From the NCBI RefSeq assembly GCF_016653465.1, contig NZ_NHSQ01000132.1, forward strand, positions 1 to 64,000: a stretch of DNA of 64,000 nucleotides, written 5' to 3'. Below are positions 54,388-58,925 of the stretch, piece after piece; position 1 is the first letter of the stretch, and each line of letters begins with the position of its first letter. The position numbers and the translations under genes are program-made. The notes under the pieces are model-generated. The model was not told the origin of the DNA, made no database searches, and worked only from the letters and a program-made list of their open reading frames with translations. Source of the DNA: Thiocystis minor. GTDB lineage: Bacteria; Pseudomonadota; Gammaproteobacteria; Chromatiales; Chromatiaceae.

Positions 54388-56604
54388 CTACACCGTCATC
54401 CGCCGATAAATCTCCGAGACGCGCAACGGTAGCTTACCGACCTTTTCGACCAGGACGTAACCAGCCGGTCCAAACACGTGGGGCAGGTATTCCTGGGCCT
54501 GGTCGTCGATGGTGATGCAGAAAGGGTGAACGCCCCGACCGCGCGCTTCCAGCACCGCCTGGCGGGTGTCTTCGATGCCATAATCGCCACGGTAGCCATC
54601 CTCGTCGTCCGGTCGACCGTCGGACAGGACGATCAAGACGCGGGTGCGCGCCTCGACCGCCAGCAGCTTGCGTGTCAGATGGCGGATGGCGACGCCCATG
54701 CGGGTGTAGTCCTGGGGCCGGATGCCGCTGATACGGGCCTGCACCTTGGCGTCGTAGGACTCGTCGAAATTCTTGATTCGATAGCTGTCGCAGCGGGTGT
54801 GGGTATAGCCGGAGAAGCCGTGGATGGCGTAGCGGTCGCCCAGACGTTCCAGCGCCTCGCACAGCAGCACCAGCGATTCGCGTTGGGCGTCGTTGATCCA
54901 GCCCTTGGTGGATCCGCTCATGTCCACCATGAACAGCACCGCGAGATTGCGGTCGAGCTTGCGGCGACGCAGAAACAGGCGGTCGGTCATCTCCAGTCCC
55001 TGTGCCTGATCGGCGTGGGCCTCGACCAGTGCATCGATATCCAGATCGTCGCCGAAGGGTTCACGCTTGATCAGCCGCTCCTCGCCGCGGATCGCCTCGA
55101 AGGTGCGGTAGAGGTGTTTCAACAGTCCCCGGTATTTGTGACGGGTCGCGGCAACGAAGTCATCCGGCTGGGGGTGAACATCCTTCTCGCGCAGTTGACA
55201 CCAACCCTTGCGATAGCCCTGACGGCCGGCGTCCCATTCGTCGTAGAGGAAGGTATCGGGCGCGTGCGTGGGCGCGCCATCATCCCGCGCCTGGACCGAC
55301 TGGCGCTGATAGACGCCCTGCCCCGCCGCCTCCAGATACTCGGGCGGGATATGGCCGAAGTCCTGCGCGATGGATTGCAGGAGCTGCACGGTCGCGGGGA
55401 TCGAGCGCACCGGCTGGTCGCCCAGCCGCAATTGGAAGGCGAAACCGTCGGGCCAGTCATCATCGGGCTCGGGATCGACCCGAAACGTCGGCGTTTCGCC
55501 AGCGGGCGAACGACGGCCGACGGCCTGCTCGGCGACGATCTGGGCCAGCGTCGCGTGCAACAACTCGCGTTCGCGGGCGATTCGCACGGCGGCGATCTCG
55601 GCCACCCGTTCCGGGCGGAGGTCGCCCTGATAGCAGAGAGGCGCCAGCGGAACGACATCAGCGGCGTACAGCTCGGCGACCAGCGCCCAACTCAGGGCTG
55701 CGTCGGCCTCGGGACGGGTCACCCGCTCGGCGATGGTGCGCCAGCTCGGCGAGAGCGACTCGCGGCCCGCCAGTCGACGCATCTCGCGCCAGAGACCGGG
55801 GAGTTCGGTGGCGAGCCGGGCATCCAGCCTGAATCTCTCGATCGACTGGAACAGGGCGAGTGCGCGACTGGAATCTGGATACGTCGCCAGATGGACTAAC
55901 GCGGGTTCGCGCCAGGTGCCGCACCAGGTCTGGGCCCAGAGGTAGGCGACGATCGCCTTGTAAAGTCGAAAATTATCAGCCGGGTCGGGAAATTGGCTCA
56001 GGAACGGGGGCAGAAAGAGCGTTTCGGTGTCGGTATGGATGACCGCGTCGGTTTCCAGACGGAGCCCGCGCCCCGCAAGGCCGATGGTCCATGACTCCAG
56101 CACCGGCTGAACCTCAGCGAAACGCACTTGGCAGCGACGCTCGCGCAAGGTTCTGGCGTCGTCGGCAACCCCTTGCATGACGCGGATGCCGCCCTGGGTA
56201 CCCGAGCGGTCGTAGGTGTCCAAGAGCTGGACGATCCAGTCATGGATCTCGTCGTCCGGGAGATGGCGCAGGATCTCCGGCGCGTGGATGCAAAGATGAT
56301 AGGTCAGCTCCAGGCTGGTGCGGGCGACCCGTGCCAGATGGCCGAACATCGCCTCTACCCGAGCGGCGGGGAACCAGGCCAGCGCCTCGGCGGGCGGGCG
56401 CACACTGCGGCGCATCGACAGCACCCGATACACGAGCGTTTCGAGTCGTTCATGAATGCTGTCCTCGGAGAGGGCATCGGAGGCCCGCCGTCCCTCCTGT
56501 CCATAACGGGCGGCCAAGACCTCGACATTGAGTGGGTTGGCACGGATCCGTGCCAGGCATTCTTCCTGACCGATCTGGATGTCGATACGGCGGTCGTCGT
56601 TCAT
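54388..56604 (-). CDS. CbbO/NorD-like von Willebrand factor A protein
   Basis: The 738-residue protein has a long helical N-terminal region of about 520 residues and a C-terminal VWA domain with the metal-ion site DMSGSTKGW near residue 560 and VLSDGRPDDED further on. This plan matches CbbO, which works with the MoxR-type ATPase CbbQ to reactivate Rubisco, and the related NorD adaptor. The start at 56604 follows the first Met giving the family N-terminus MNDDRRIDIQ. No cbbQ or norQ gene lies on either side, so the partner must be elsewhere. The SET-domain protein follows it. CbbO is the likelier identity in an autotroph, but NorD cannot be excluded. Confidence 0.75.
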   Translation of the reverse strand: MNDDRRIDIQIGQEECLARIRANPLNVEVLAARYGQEGRRASDALSEDSIHERLETLVYRVLSMRRSVRPPAEALAWFPAARVEAMFGHLARVARTSLELTYHLCIHAPEILRHLPDDEIHDWIVQLLDTYDRSGTQGGIRVMQGVADDARTLRERRCQVRFAEVQPVLESWTIGLAGRGLRLETDAVIHTDTETLFLPPFLSQFPDPADNFRLYKAIVAYLWAQTWCGTWREPALVHLATYPDSSRALALFQSIERFRLDARLATELPGLWREMRRLAGRESLSPSWRTIAERVTRPEADAALSWALVAELYAADVVPLAPLCYQGDLRPERVAEIAAVRIARERELLHATLAQIVAEQAVGRRSPAGETPTFRVDPEPDDDWPDGFAFQLRLGDQPVRSIPATVQLLQSIAQDFGHIPPEYLEAAGQGVYQRQSVQARDDGAPTHAPDTFLYDEWDAGRQGYRKGWCQLREKDVHPQPDDFVAATRHKYRGLLKHLYRTFEAIRGEERLIKREPFGDDLDIDALVEAHADQAQGLEMTDRLFLRRRKLDRNLAVLFMVDMSGSTKGWINDAQRESLVLLCEALERLGDRYAIHGFSGYTHTRCDSYRIKNFDESYDAKVQARISGIRPQDYTRMGVAIRHLTRKLLAVEARTRVLIVLSDGRPDDEDGYRGDYGIEDTRQAVLEARGRGVHPFCITIDDQAQEYLPHVFGPAGYVLVEKVGKLPLRVSEIYRRMTV

Positions 56605-56761
56605 GAATCCATCCCGTGAATCAATCGGGGCGACCGATGCGGACCAGGTCGAGATATGATCAGACCCATTTCCCCCGACGGGAGATGGGCGAAACCCGAC
56701 CTGAGAAGCTCCACGGACGATCGATGACCGCCCCGGAGCCACACGTCACGTTGGATGCGCG

Positions 56762-57235
56762 TTAGTCCTCATAGCGCAAGAAGATGTTGCTGTCCGAATC
56801 TTGACGCCAAAAATCGCTCCCAGCCGATCCCATGCCCGTGCCGGACGCATACATGCCGGAGGATGACGTGCTGGATGACGATCCCATCGGCATGCGCTCG
56901 AAGGCGGAGAATTCGGTCCGTTCCTCGCTCGTCCGATTGTAGGGCCACTCGTAGTTAAGGAAGTTGTTGGTATACCAACCGCTCCACCCCCCGACACCGT
57001 GCGGATTCGATCCTCCGCTGTACGATTCAAAGGCGGAGAATTCGGCCCGCTCCCCGCTCGTCCCATGGTAAGGCGATTCGTAGTTGAGGAAGTTGTTGGT
57101 TCGCCAACCGCTCCATCCCTCGAAGCCGCCACGATCCGCTTCGCCGTACTCGGGCATGTTTGAGGACGACACCAGACTCGTCTGCAACAGACCGGCCGCA
57201 AGCAAGCCTAGCGCAAAACTGCCTTTCGTCTTCAT
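56762..57235 (-). CDS. Secreted protein with two EFSAFE repeats
   Basis: A 157-residue exported protein. The signal peptide MKTKGSFALGLLAAGLLQTS is followed by two tandem repeats of about 35 residues, each GxxGWSGW...TNNFLNYE-P-Y..ER.EFSAFE, at roughly 40-73 and 80-115. A Ser/Gly-rich tail and a C-terminal FLRYED close the protein. The leader before the ATG, GAGGTATCGAG, is almost identical to that of the other EFSAFE protein at 58410. I do not recognise the family. It lies upstream of, and co-directional with, no other gene on this strand within 150 bases. Confidence 0.7.
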   Translation of the reverse strand: MKTKGSFALGLLAAGLLQTSLVSSSNMPEYGEADRGGFEGWSGWRTNNFLNYESPYHGTSGERAEFSAFESYSGGSNPHGVGGWSGWYTNNFLNYEWPYNRTSEERTEFSAFERMPMGSSSSTSSSGMYASGTGMGSAGSDFWRQDSDSNIFLRYED

Positions 57236-57558
57236 CTCGATACCTCATCAAGTGGAAACACGAAATATCATGCATACCTTGACCCCTGTGCCCGAACGGC
57301 AGAACCCGCGAGCAATCGTCTCCGCGCCGCCCCCAACACAGGATGGTCAACTCGATTTAAAGTATGGATAACGATTTCCACAAAAAAACCGCTCGGTTTT
57401 TAGCCTATTTTCGTGGTCAATCGCGCCATGTTGTCTGCGCCCCTGGCGGATCGCGGCAACAAGCGAGGCGGGAATCGCAAAGGGATACATTCAGGTGGTG
57501 AGCGCCCACTACATGGACGCGACCTGCCTCCGCCCTCCTCGCGGTGGCAGGTTCGGGA
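57236..57558. other. Intergenic region with the EFSAFE1 promoter
   Basis: Positions 57236-57400 should hold the promoter of the secreted EFSAFE protein. A weak A/T-rich hairpin at 57384-57401 is the only structure I see. No gene is supported. Confidence 0.4.
57384..57401 (-). terminator. Possible terminator of the protease gene
   Basis: AAAAACC, GCTC and GGTTTTT form a short hairpin followed by further Ts on the minus strand, 158 bases after the protease stop codon. It is AT-rich and therefore weak. Confidence 0.4.
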
Positions 57559-58077
57559 TCAGTCGGTGGCGGCGTTAAAGGCAACCGCCGACGGGGACGC
57601 CGCAGCGGCCGTGGCCGCGCAGTGACTCAACACCAGCGACGGCGGATCCACCGAAAAGATGAAGGGGGCTGCCTTGCGAAGGGCGCTCAGACCCAGGATC
57701 TGGCGCGTCCCGGCGGGGAACACCGCCGCTTCCACATCGTGGAGCCAGCAGTCGCCGCCGATGTTCAGCGCGCCGATGGCATAGATCGAGACCTCCATCT
57801 CGCTGCCATTGGCGAGGATGCCCTGGAGCCGTTTGACATAACGAACGCCACCCTGGCGCTTGAGTGTGCGAAGGGTACCCTCGTTGATCGTGACATAGCC
57901 CGAACCGGTGTCGACCATCAGTTCCGTATCGCCGAAACCCTGGATATGGGTGGGAACATAGAAGGTTGCCGCCGCCCTCTCCCGCATCGCGATGCGGGTA
58001 TCGAACTCCGCCGCCAAGGCTGGGTTCAAGGTCAATAACAGCACTGTCAACGGCACAAAAAACAACCTTGATCGCAT
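57559..58077 (-). CDS. Secreted retropepsin-like aspartic protease
   Basis: A 172-residue exported protein. The signal peptide MRSRLFFVPLTVLLLTLNPA ends at LAA-EF. The mature domain carries the aspartic protease motif ELMVDTGSGYVTINEGTL, a flap-like segment VRYVKRLQGILANGSEMEVS, and a second half WLHDVEAAVFPAGTRQILGL, as in single-chain retropepsin-like proteases that work as dimers. The start at 58077 is chosen because it opens the signal peptide, and AAGGAAAG lies about ten bases before it. It sits between the two EFSAFE protein genes. Confidence 0.8.
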   Translation of the reverse strand: MRSRLFFVPLTVLLLTLNPALAAEFDTRIAMRERAAATFYVPTHIQGFGDTELMVDTGSGYVTINEGTLRTLKRQGGVRYVKRLQGILANGSEMEVSIYAIGALNIGGDCWLHDVEAAVFPAGTRQILGLSALRKAAPFIFSVDPPSLVLSHCAATAAAASPSAVAFNAATD

Positions 58078-58409
58078 GGAACGCTTTCCTTCGAAGGAGG
58101 TGAAAGTGCACACTAGCCCAGAGTCTATCCTGAAAGAAAATGAATATTCCGTGACGAGCGTCACTGTTTGGTCGTCGATACGGTACCGGCGGTCGGGTCG
58201 TTCTTGCCGACGTCGCTCGGCAACGTCGCCCGAGTCCGTGCTAGCAACCGAATCAAGCCCAAAATTCACCTAGGTTTTGCTCGGAACTCACCGCGCCGCC
58301 CTGAACTCGAATACCGTGACAAGTGCCGCCGGGTGACGGAACGCGGGTCAAGCCGTCTCGGTCACCGGACATCGCGGCACGGATCCTGTCCCACTTGGGA
58401 GGTATCGAG
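58078..58409. other. Divergent region between protease and EFSAFE2
   Basis: Divergent promoters must lie here. GTGACG-AG-CGTCAC at 58151-58164 is a perfect operator-like palindrome. A 55-codon frame from a GTG at 58106 has a perfect AAGGAGG site but arginine-rich random-looking content. Confidence 0.4.
58151..58164. promoter_or_regulatory. Operator-like palindrome
   Basis: GTGACG and CGTCAC flank two bases, forming a perfect 14-base dyad in the gap between the divergent protease and EFSAFE2 genes. A dimeric regulator could control both. Confidence 0.4.
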
Positions 58410-58925
58410 ATGAAAACCATAGGCAATTTCACGCTGAGCCTGCTCGCGATCGGCATGCTGCAGGTGACTCCGGCGTTGGCGGCCGATCTCAGCGGCCTGC
58501 CGCCGGCTCAAATGCACAATGGCATCACCTATATCACCGGCGGTATCGGCCAGCCCGAGTCCGACGCCATGAAGGCGGCGGCTGGTCGTTACGACCTCAT
58601 GCTGACCTTCGCGGAGCGTAGCGGCGCCTATCTCGCCGGCGTCAAGGTCAACATCGCCGATCGGAGCGGCGACACCATCCTGGATCTTATTTCCGGGCCG
58701 ATCCTGCTGGTCGATCTACCCGCCGGCAGCTATCGAGTGCGGGCGGACGTGGCCGGCAATCCGCTGGTCAAGACCATCGACATCGCTGGCAAGACGCACC
58801 GCCATGTCGCTTACGCCTGGCCCAACAACATCGACGAGCGAAGCGAATTCTCCGCCTTCGAGTCCGAGCCGATGGAGCGCGCGCCATCCAAGTCCACCGG
58901 GACATCCTCCGGCATGAGCGAATGA
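58410..58925 (+). CDS. Secreted protein with carboxypeptidase-regulatory-like domain and EFSAFE tail
   Basis: A 171-residue exported protein. The signal peptide MKTIGNFTLSLLAIGMLQVT is cleaved after ALA. The mature domain (about 30-135) has GAYLAGVKVNIADRSGDTIL and LLVDLPAGSYRVRADVAG, the beta-sandwich pattern of carboxypeptidase-regulatory-like domains that bind surfaces or sugars. The C-terminus (about 137-171) reads AWPNNIDERSEFSAFESEPM and a Ser/Thr-rich tail ending SSGMSE, matching the tail of the EFSAFE1 protein. The start at 58410 has GGGAGG seven bases upstream, the same leader as EFSAFE1. Confidence 0.75.
   Translation: MKTIGNFTLSLLAIGMLQVTPALAADLSGLPPAQMHNGITYITGGIGQPESDAMKAAAGRYDLMLTFAERSGAYLAGVKVNIADRSGDTILDLISGPILLVDLPAGSYRVRADVAGNPLVKTIDIAGKTHRHVAYAWPNNIDERSEFSAFESEPMERAPSKSTGTSSGMSE

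Follow-up and report, generated by a model that had tools for sequence, protein, structure and literature searches.

This study concerns a 64,000-nucleotide stretch of DNA from Thiocystis minor (positions 1 to 64,000 of contig NZ_NHSQ01000132.1, hereafter the window), in which the gene for an exported retropepsin-like aspartic protease lies between those of two exported proteins, P1 and P2, that carry the hexamer EFSAFE (Table 1). An earlier reading of the window (hereafter the original prediction) held that three copies of this motif occur in two exported proteins with a secreted protease between them; all three copies are present, two in P1 and one in P2, and the position of the protease between the two genes is borne out. 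Signal peptides, here and throughout, were judged by eye or with a crude script rather than with SignalP.

Table 1. Features of the protease locus, with positions in the window
Feature	Position	Strand	Remarks
P1, exported Gly/Ser/Trp-rich repeat protein, 157 aa	56762..57235	-	homologues in G132 and G031
Second EFSAFE of P1, residues 108-113	56897..56914	-	
First EFSAFE of P1, residues 65-70	57026..57043	-	
Leader GAGGTATCGAG, abutting the ATG of P1	57236..57246	-	
Exported retropepsin-like aspartic protease, 172 aa	57559..58077	-	PF13975/PF13650; predicted fold
Catalytic D-T-G of the protease, residues 56-58	57904..57912	-	in 74/74 aligned relatives
Leader GAGGTATCGAG, abutting the ATG of P2	58399..58409	+	
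P2, exported protein, 171 aa, folded domain and low-confidence tail with EFSAFE	58410..58925	+	
EFSAFE of P2, residues 146-151	58845..58862	+	

The protease carries VDTGS and a C-proximal RQILG, and exceeds the Pfam cut-offs for both PF13975 and PF13650. Its predicted structure has a retropepsin fold (mean predicted local distance difference test score, pLDDT, of 86), for which the Rickettsia retropepsin APRc is the best match (PDB 5c9f, E 1.2e-7), followed by the proteases of human and feline immunodeficiency viruses (HIV and FIV); a sequence search of solved structures likewise places APRc first (E 4.5e-5). Identity in the fold match is about 20%. Across an alignment covering 74 of 76 protease loci (G229 and G473, with partial or marginal matches, were omitted), D56, T57, G58, C110, and C153 are present in every sequence, and Arg-125, which precedes ILG, in 71 of 74. 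As each chain has a single DTG motif, the enzyme very probably works as a homodimer, and C110 and C153 probably form a disulfide of the exported enzyme. Judged by the ILG motif, Arg-125 would take the place of V82 in HIV protease, and could contact the flanking acidic residues of EFSAFE. The window protease scores 24.8 bits against TIGR02281 (clan_AA_DTGA), below its curated cut-off of 57.95, and in a scan of 22 proteases the Pfam matches at E <= 0.01 were confined to PF13975 and PF13650, with none to the RimB/RloA family (PF05618).

P1 contains two 38-residue repeats that are identical at 27 of 38 positions and follow the pattern W-S-G-W-x-T-N-N-F-L-N-Y-E...ER-x-EFSAFE, so that each holds ERxEFSAFE. 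At E <= 1 it matches neither Pfam nor NCBIfam models, and its homologues are those of G132 (85% identity; genomes are given by G numbers) and of G031, another genus (43%), whose P1-like protein has ERSEFSDRES and ERSEFSALES and whose protease lies on a separate contig. No relative was found in viral contigs, and a single weak match among genome contigs (a Treponema metagenome-assembled genome, E 2e-5, 29% over part of the protein) was judged to be chance. In 200,000 shuffles each, EFSAFE arises at a rate of 8e-5 in P1 (minus its first 22 residues) and never in P2, and the EFSAFE DNA pattern has just three matches in the T. minor genome, those of P1 and P2; the recurrence of the motif is thus beyond chance. 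A search for other EF[SA]xFE proteins in this genome and in G132, which misses serines encoded by AGY, gave four matches besides P1 and P2, all in noise-like frames.

The body of P2 belongs to a carboxypeptidase-regulatory-like family, with matches at E <= 0.1 (weak ones counted) in 49 of the 146 genomes searched from the taxonomic family of T. minor, as well as in 34 records of plasmids from Paraburkholderia, Burkholderia, Cupriavidus, Caballeronia, and Variovorax, several of them annotated as carboxypeptidase-regulatory-like; P2 itself has no Pfam match above cut-off. In G087, G049, and G101, the nearest relatives of this body stop short of the EFSAFE tail; the G022 relative carries a different, proline-rich tail. 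The AlphaFold model of P2 shows a confident domain at about residues 34-138, and the tail that holds the motif has a pLDDT of about 50.

The close relative G132 retains P1, the protease, and P2 on a single contig, with all three motifs. Two extra genes stand there between protease and P2 (L050 6978-8144), at a place where the window has none, so that the flanking arrangement described in the original prediction does not hold in G132; we take these genes to encode a GPR1/FUN34/YaaH-like transporter and a Cache-like exported protein. Nonsynonymous (dN) and synonymous (dS) divergence from G132 is 0.074/0.227 for P1, 0.046/0.073 for P2, and 0.032/0.217 for the protease, with dN < dS in all three.

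Distribution of the motif with the protease

The 146 family genomes, together with 369 from the class and with four common to both sets, make up 511 unique genomes. Relatives of the protease are found in 23 of the 146 family and 54 of the 369 class genomes, two being shared, i.e. in 75 of 511 gammaproteobacterial genomes, a count that includes the marginal matches of G473 and G352. A phylum-wide search of 349 genomes returned high-scoring relatives only inside the class (T. minor itself, G491, and G779), and six genomes outside it have weaker matches (E 1e-15 to 8e-9).

Raw matches to the EFSAFE DNA pattern are present in 40 of the 75 protease-bearing genomes and in 32 of the 436 others (P ~1e-19). 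The original prediction had expected that the motif would not be common without the protease, and the 511 genomes agree: apparently exported proteins that bear EFSAFE close to the C-terminus (hereafter carriers) occur in 37 of 75 protease-bearing genomes compared with 0 of 436 others (Fisher P ~1e-35), the pattern matches having been classified by unblinded reading. Including the anchored borderline proteins of G058, G220, and G347 raises the latter figure to 3 of 436 (P ~9e-32), and when taxonomic families are the unit, exported EFSAFE is found in 12 of 34 families of the class set with the protease vs 0 of 148 without (P ~3e-10). Matches in the 32 protease-lacking genomes fall in non-exported proteins or noise frames, except for these three genomes and G311, which has a Cox11-like protein with EFTAFE. 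The backward EFSAFE pattern matches in 16 of the 511 genomes (6 in the family set and 10 in the class set).

The motif is also concentrated around the protease genes. At the 76 protease loci, EF[SA]xF[ED] stands near the C-terminus of 46 of 618 signal-peptide-like open reading frames (ORFs) within 1.5 kb, compared with 6 of 1459 farther away, and these six, at 1.6-5.3 kb from the protease, are plausible carriers themselves. A reversed motif was uninformative as a control here, since the near-palindromic EFSAFE matches it, and scrambled motifs took its place. These give near and far counts of 0 and 0 (scr2), 1 and 5 (scr3), 4 and 14 (scr4), and 16 and 3 (scr1), and all 16 near matches of scr1 overlap the real motif (VDAAEFSAFE and similar). 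A broad motif combined with the crude signal-peptide filter places a carrier at about 49 of 76 loci, an approximate figure as the filter admits noise ORFs (e.g. EVSVLE in G164) and misses some carriers; by reading, a carrier lies within 1.5 kb at 51 of 76 loci, that of G170 being weak. Counting exact and variant forms, again by reading, a carrier is present in 59 of 75 protease-bearing genomes, a figure that has no genome-level control, as variants were sought near proteases only. Comparison of carrier-less loci within clades gave no conserved motif-bearing neighbor, except for an OmpA-like protein of G300 that ends in VVDFSAFEEVK.

The proteases of G353, G230, and G455 (L230, L234, and L223) have another conserved exported neighbor of ~142 aa that lacks the motif and is perhaps another type of partner.

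Carrier proteins and motif variants

The original prediction covered P1 and P2 only; the further carriers and the wide distribution of the protease are additions to it. Small EF-hand proteins, whose last EF hand closes with EFSAFE, are the most common carriers. Others are PRC-barrel proteins without an EF hand (G117, G135, G130, G481, G299, and G452), a PRC/EF-hand fusion (G042), an OmpA-like protein (G477), and exported proteins with no recognizable domain (G330, G188, and two in G328). A Pfam scan of ten carriers, exact or variant, assigned two to PRC (PF05239), one to PG_binding_1 (PF01471), one to OmpA (PF00691), and one to EF-hand, leaving five unmatched; type names outside these ten were given by eye. 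No NCBIfam model over the motif reached its cut-off in a scan of six carriers. Several carriers are far from the protease or on other contigs (G330, two in G328, G188, G190, G452, G428, G159, G225, G135, and G042). The tails that follow EFSAFE, as judged by eye in P1, P2, and those carriers that were read, are hydrophilic or of low complexity and have no hydrophobic anchor.

The EF-hand carrier of G050 has homologues in 52 of the 146 genomes from the family, and the protease is missing from 32 of these. Among these 32, the homologues of 11 were read and none has EFSAFE; hexamers at the site include EFSKFV, EFATYA, EFAAYE, EFGKME, EFMAFE, and EFAVYQ, and two have no EF. Unlinked EF-hand paralogues in protease-bearing genomes have EFASFV (G117 and G135), EFAKFE (G003), EFAAFE (G128), or EFSALE (G130), and those of G042 and a second one of G130 have no such motif.

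Several forms of the motif are found near proteases. These include EFSALE (G145, G065, and G227), EFARFE (G350, G453, G266, G380, and G386, where an EF-hand protein and a peptidoglycan-binding one both have it), EFAQFE (G200 and G266), EFAKFE (G345 and G276), ELAIFE (G277), and, 1.6 kb from the protease, EFAAFE (G483). The second protease of G200 adjoins a repeat protein with AEFAKFD and AEFAPFS. OmpA-like proteins have EVSAIE (G349), ELSAME (G225), or DFSAFE (G300), and proteins that appear lipoprotein-like by eye have EMAKFE or DMAKFE (G236 and G318). The form D-V/I-A-x-L-E occurs in G379, G264, and G491, is doubled in G491 and G779, and is weak in G170; DVAQLE is among the forms near divergent proteases. 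On a tree of 74 proteases, whose deep order is unsure and which has several long branches, the variants are distributed mostly by clade. The variants mostly track protease clades in this way, and the general form of the motif is [DE]-h-[AS]-x-h-E, where h is hydrophobic.

DUF4340-like proteins with EFSAFE are encoded in G347 (L317) and G220 (L285), which have no protease, and in G486 (L284), which has one.

Probable recognition and proposed cleavage of EFSAFE

From these distributions we consider it highly likely that motif and protease are functionally linked. The motif is shared by unrelated folds, is repeated in P1, lies near C-termini, and changes with the enzyme, which argues for recognition by the protease, most likely as a cleavage site. 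The original prediction offered a processing or an anchoring signal read by the protease; co-distribution supports recognition, and for P1, P2, and the other carriers we favor processing over anchoring because the tails have no hydrophobic anchor after the motif. Our preferred interpretation, which we regard as reasonably probable, is that the locus encodes a secreted, dimeric retropepsin that recognizes, and most likely cleaves, EFSAFE in exported proteins; that the motif is in fact cut is, taken separately, about as probable. The locus would encode the protease and two of its targets. As a dimer, the protease would bind EFSAFE where the hexamer stands in a flexible region, mostly C-terminal, of an exported protein, and would most likely cut inside it; P2 would thereby lose its tail and P1 would be cut at both repeats, perhaps for the maturation or release of envelope proteins; we infer dimerization, binding, cleavage, scissile bond, and purpose alike.

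The cleft of retropepsins reads 6-8 residues, a length comparable to that of the motif, and the near mirror symmetry of the latter (E-F-S / A-F-E) would suit a twofold-symmetric enzyme. According to passages of PMC4140852, APRc prefers large hydrophobic residues at the P1 subsite (not to be confused with the protein P1). By analogy, cleavage could occur after Phe just as well as at the symmetric Ser-Ala bond.

Several observations weigh against the cleavage of a protease-specific tag. The APRc preference would point to a cut after Phe rather than at the bond that the symmetry suggests, and the P2 model has a low-confidence helix at residues 141-148 that covers part of the motif. Among genomes without the protease, G220 and G347 have a membrane-anchored DUF4340-like protein with EFSAFE outside the C-terminal tail, and G058 has a membrane-anchored sensor-like protein with EFSAFE 91 residues from the end; DUF4340-like, sensor-like, and Cox11-like are presumptive names, given from reading the sequences rather than from a family search. 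G352 was counted on a 48-residue protease match with an intact EF-hand carrier on that contig, and would be a counter-example if it is not protease-bearing. Near-matches are found in protease-lacking genomes (EFAAYE in G126 and G029, EFMAFE in G106), and many carriers are EF-hand proteins, whose fold favors 'EF..F'. The variants were recognized after the fact and near proteases only. Lastly, no carrier was seen in 16 of 75 protease-bearing genomes, including the whole clades G154/G416/G307 and G353/G230/G455, so the pairing is not universal.

We weighed three other explanations. The motif may be bound and not cut, docking, activating, or inhibiting the protease, with carriers acting as regulators or sensors. 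Co-distribution and neighborhood fit recognition of any kind, the many EF-hand carriers could be calcium sensors, and the symmetric bond is Ser-Ala, unlike the large hydrophobic P1 residue that APRc prefers; yet carriers of many unrelated folds, including domainless ones, are more easily substrates than regulators, and two motif copies stand in one P1 chain, and we hold this explanation to be unlikely. Less likely still, EFSAFE could be a localization or assembly tag for another envelope partner, with the protease in the same pathway and not the reader: several carriers are of envelope type (OmpA-like and peptidoglycan-binding by Pfam, lipoprotein-like by eye), but the variants change with the clade of the protease, and were the reader another protein, that would have to be put down to coincidence. 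Finally, the idea that EFSAFE is a mere EF-hand helix end, fused into P1 and P2 from a neighboring EF-hand gene and adjoining the protease by shared locus ancestry, draws on the abundance of EF-hand carriers and on the PRC-barrel/EF-hand fusion of G042 as a potential intermediate, but is largely refuted and very improbable given that P1 and P2 (no EF-hand match at E <= 1) and the OmpA, peptidoglycan-binding, PRC-only, and domainless carriers have no EF-hand match, that several carriers are unlinked to the protease, and that homologues read in 11 of 32 protease-lacking genomes are without EFSAFE.

For the preferred interpretation, a recognized and probably cleaved motif, the nearest logic is that of GlyGly-CTERM and rhombosortase; the present case differs from it in enzyme class and in the lack of an anchor. 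In that system (PMC3237569), a short near-C-terminal motif in unrelated exported proteins is likewise co-distributed with one protease family, and target and protease genes are adjacent in many genomes, with further targets unlinked. PEP-CTERM/exosortase (PMC1569441) and MYXO-CTERM/myxosortase (PMC11980579) belong with it. By contrast with GlyGly-CTERM, the protease here is a soluble retropepsin rather than an intramembrane protease, the tails are, by eye, without a transmembrane helix and basic C-terminal cluster, and the motif may be repeated and is not strictly terminal, as in P1.

To our knowledge, the substrates of bacterial retropepsins are hardly known. PerP of Caulobacter, a retroviral-type aspartic protease, acts in the periplasm, and a single protein, PodJ, is known as its target. 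PerP is named in passages of PMC4140852, which also describe APRc (RC1339 of Rickettsia conorii; PDB 5c9b/5c9d/5c9f), a bacterial retropepsin-like enzyme as here, as having only moderate specificity. The proposed role of APRc as an autotransporter peptidase is disputed in passages of PMC10414592, and the passages of these two papers mention no EFSAFE-like target of APRc. RloA of Pseudomonas is a secreted retropepsin whose reported substrate is a particular acidic peptide with eight or more Glu, and it resembles the present case as a secreted bacterial retropepsin that can require a specific acidic peptide (PMC12239564). RloA and RimB differ from the present case, in which the putative target is a motif encoded in the genome and the 22 proteases scanned match only PF13975/PF13650. 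As the original prediction had it, no description of such an arrangement or of the pairing of motif and protease was found among open-licence PubMed Central papers, a scope outside which subscription papers and preprints fall, and the five papers there with the string 'efsafe' are on unrelated subjects only.

More broadly, we see about equal grounds for and against a widespread gammaproteobacterial post-export system, in which many unrelated envelope proteins would share a near-palindromic hexamer tag that is cut by a soluble dimeric retropepsin, each clade having its own co-evolved pair of enzyme and tag; so far as our searches show, it would be the first such HIV-protease-like, tag-directed maturation in bacteria. 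If so, the shared-tag systems for processing exported proteins would come to include a soluble enzyme class, a large set of uncharacterized small exported proteins would gain a role, and a symmetric, possibly useful protease site would be at hand. The genome comparison yields an enzyme together with candidate substrates and a predicted site, and so allows a simple cleavage assay, e.g. with a peptide holding ERSEFSAFESEP.

Leaders and neighboring genes

P1 and P2 have in common an 11-base leader and their signal-peptide sequences. At up to one mismatch, the GAGGTATCGAGATGA leader has two matches in the T. minor genome, those of P1 and P2, both exact; G132 has two exact copies, again those of P1 and P2, and one mismatched copy elsewhere, and a reversed control has no match in the six genomes searched. 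Between P2 of the window and P1 of G132, a similarity of 79% over 66 bp reaches into the signal peptide. The likeness of leaders and signal peptides that the original prediction reported is therefore confirmed, but simple paralogy of P1 and P2 was rejected, as the two are alike only in leader, signal peptide, and motif, and the body of P2 is a separate, widespread family. In G031 (L143 6541-6610), a second exact GAGGTATCGAGATGA leader is followed only by a very short frame, and is perhaps a relic of another gene of the P1/P2 family.

Adjoining P1, the window encodes a 784-aa protein (54388-56742, minus strand) that bears a von Willebrand A domain (PF00092) at its C-terminus and that we presume to be NorD/CbbO-like. 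In G132, another ORF, of 379 aa, lies beyond P1 in its place.

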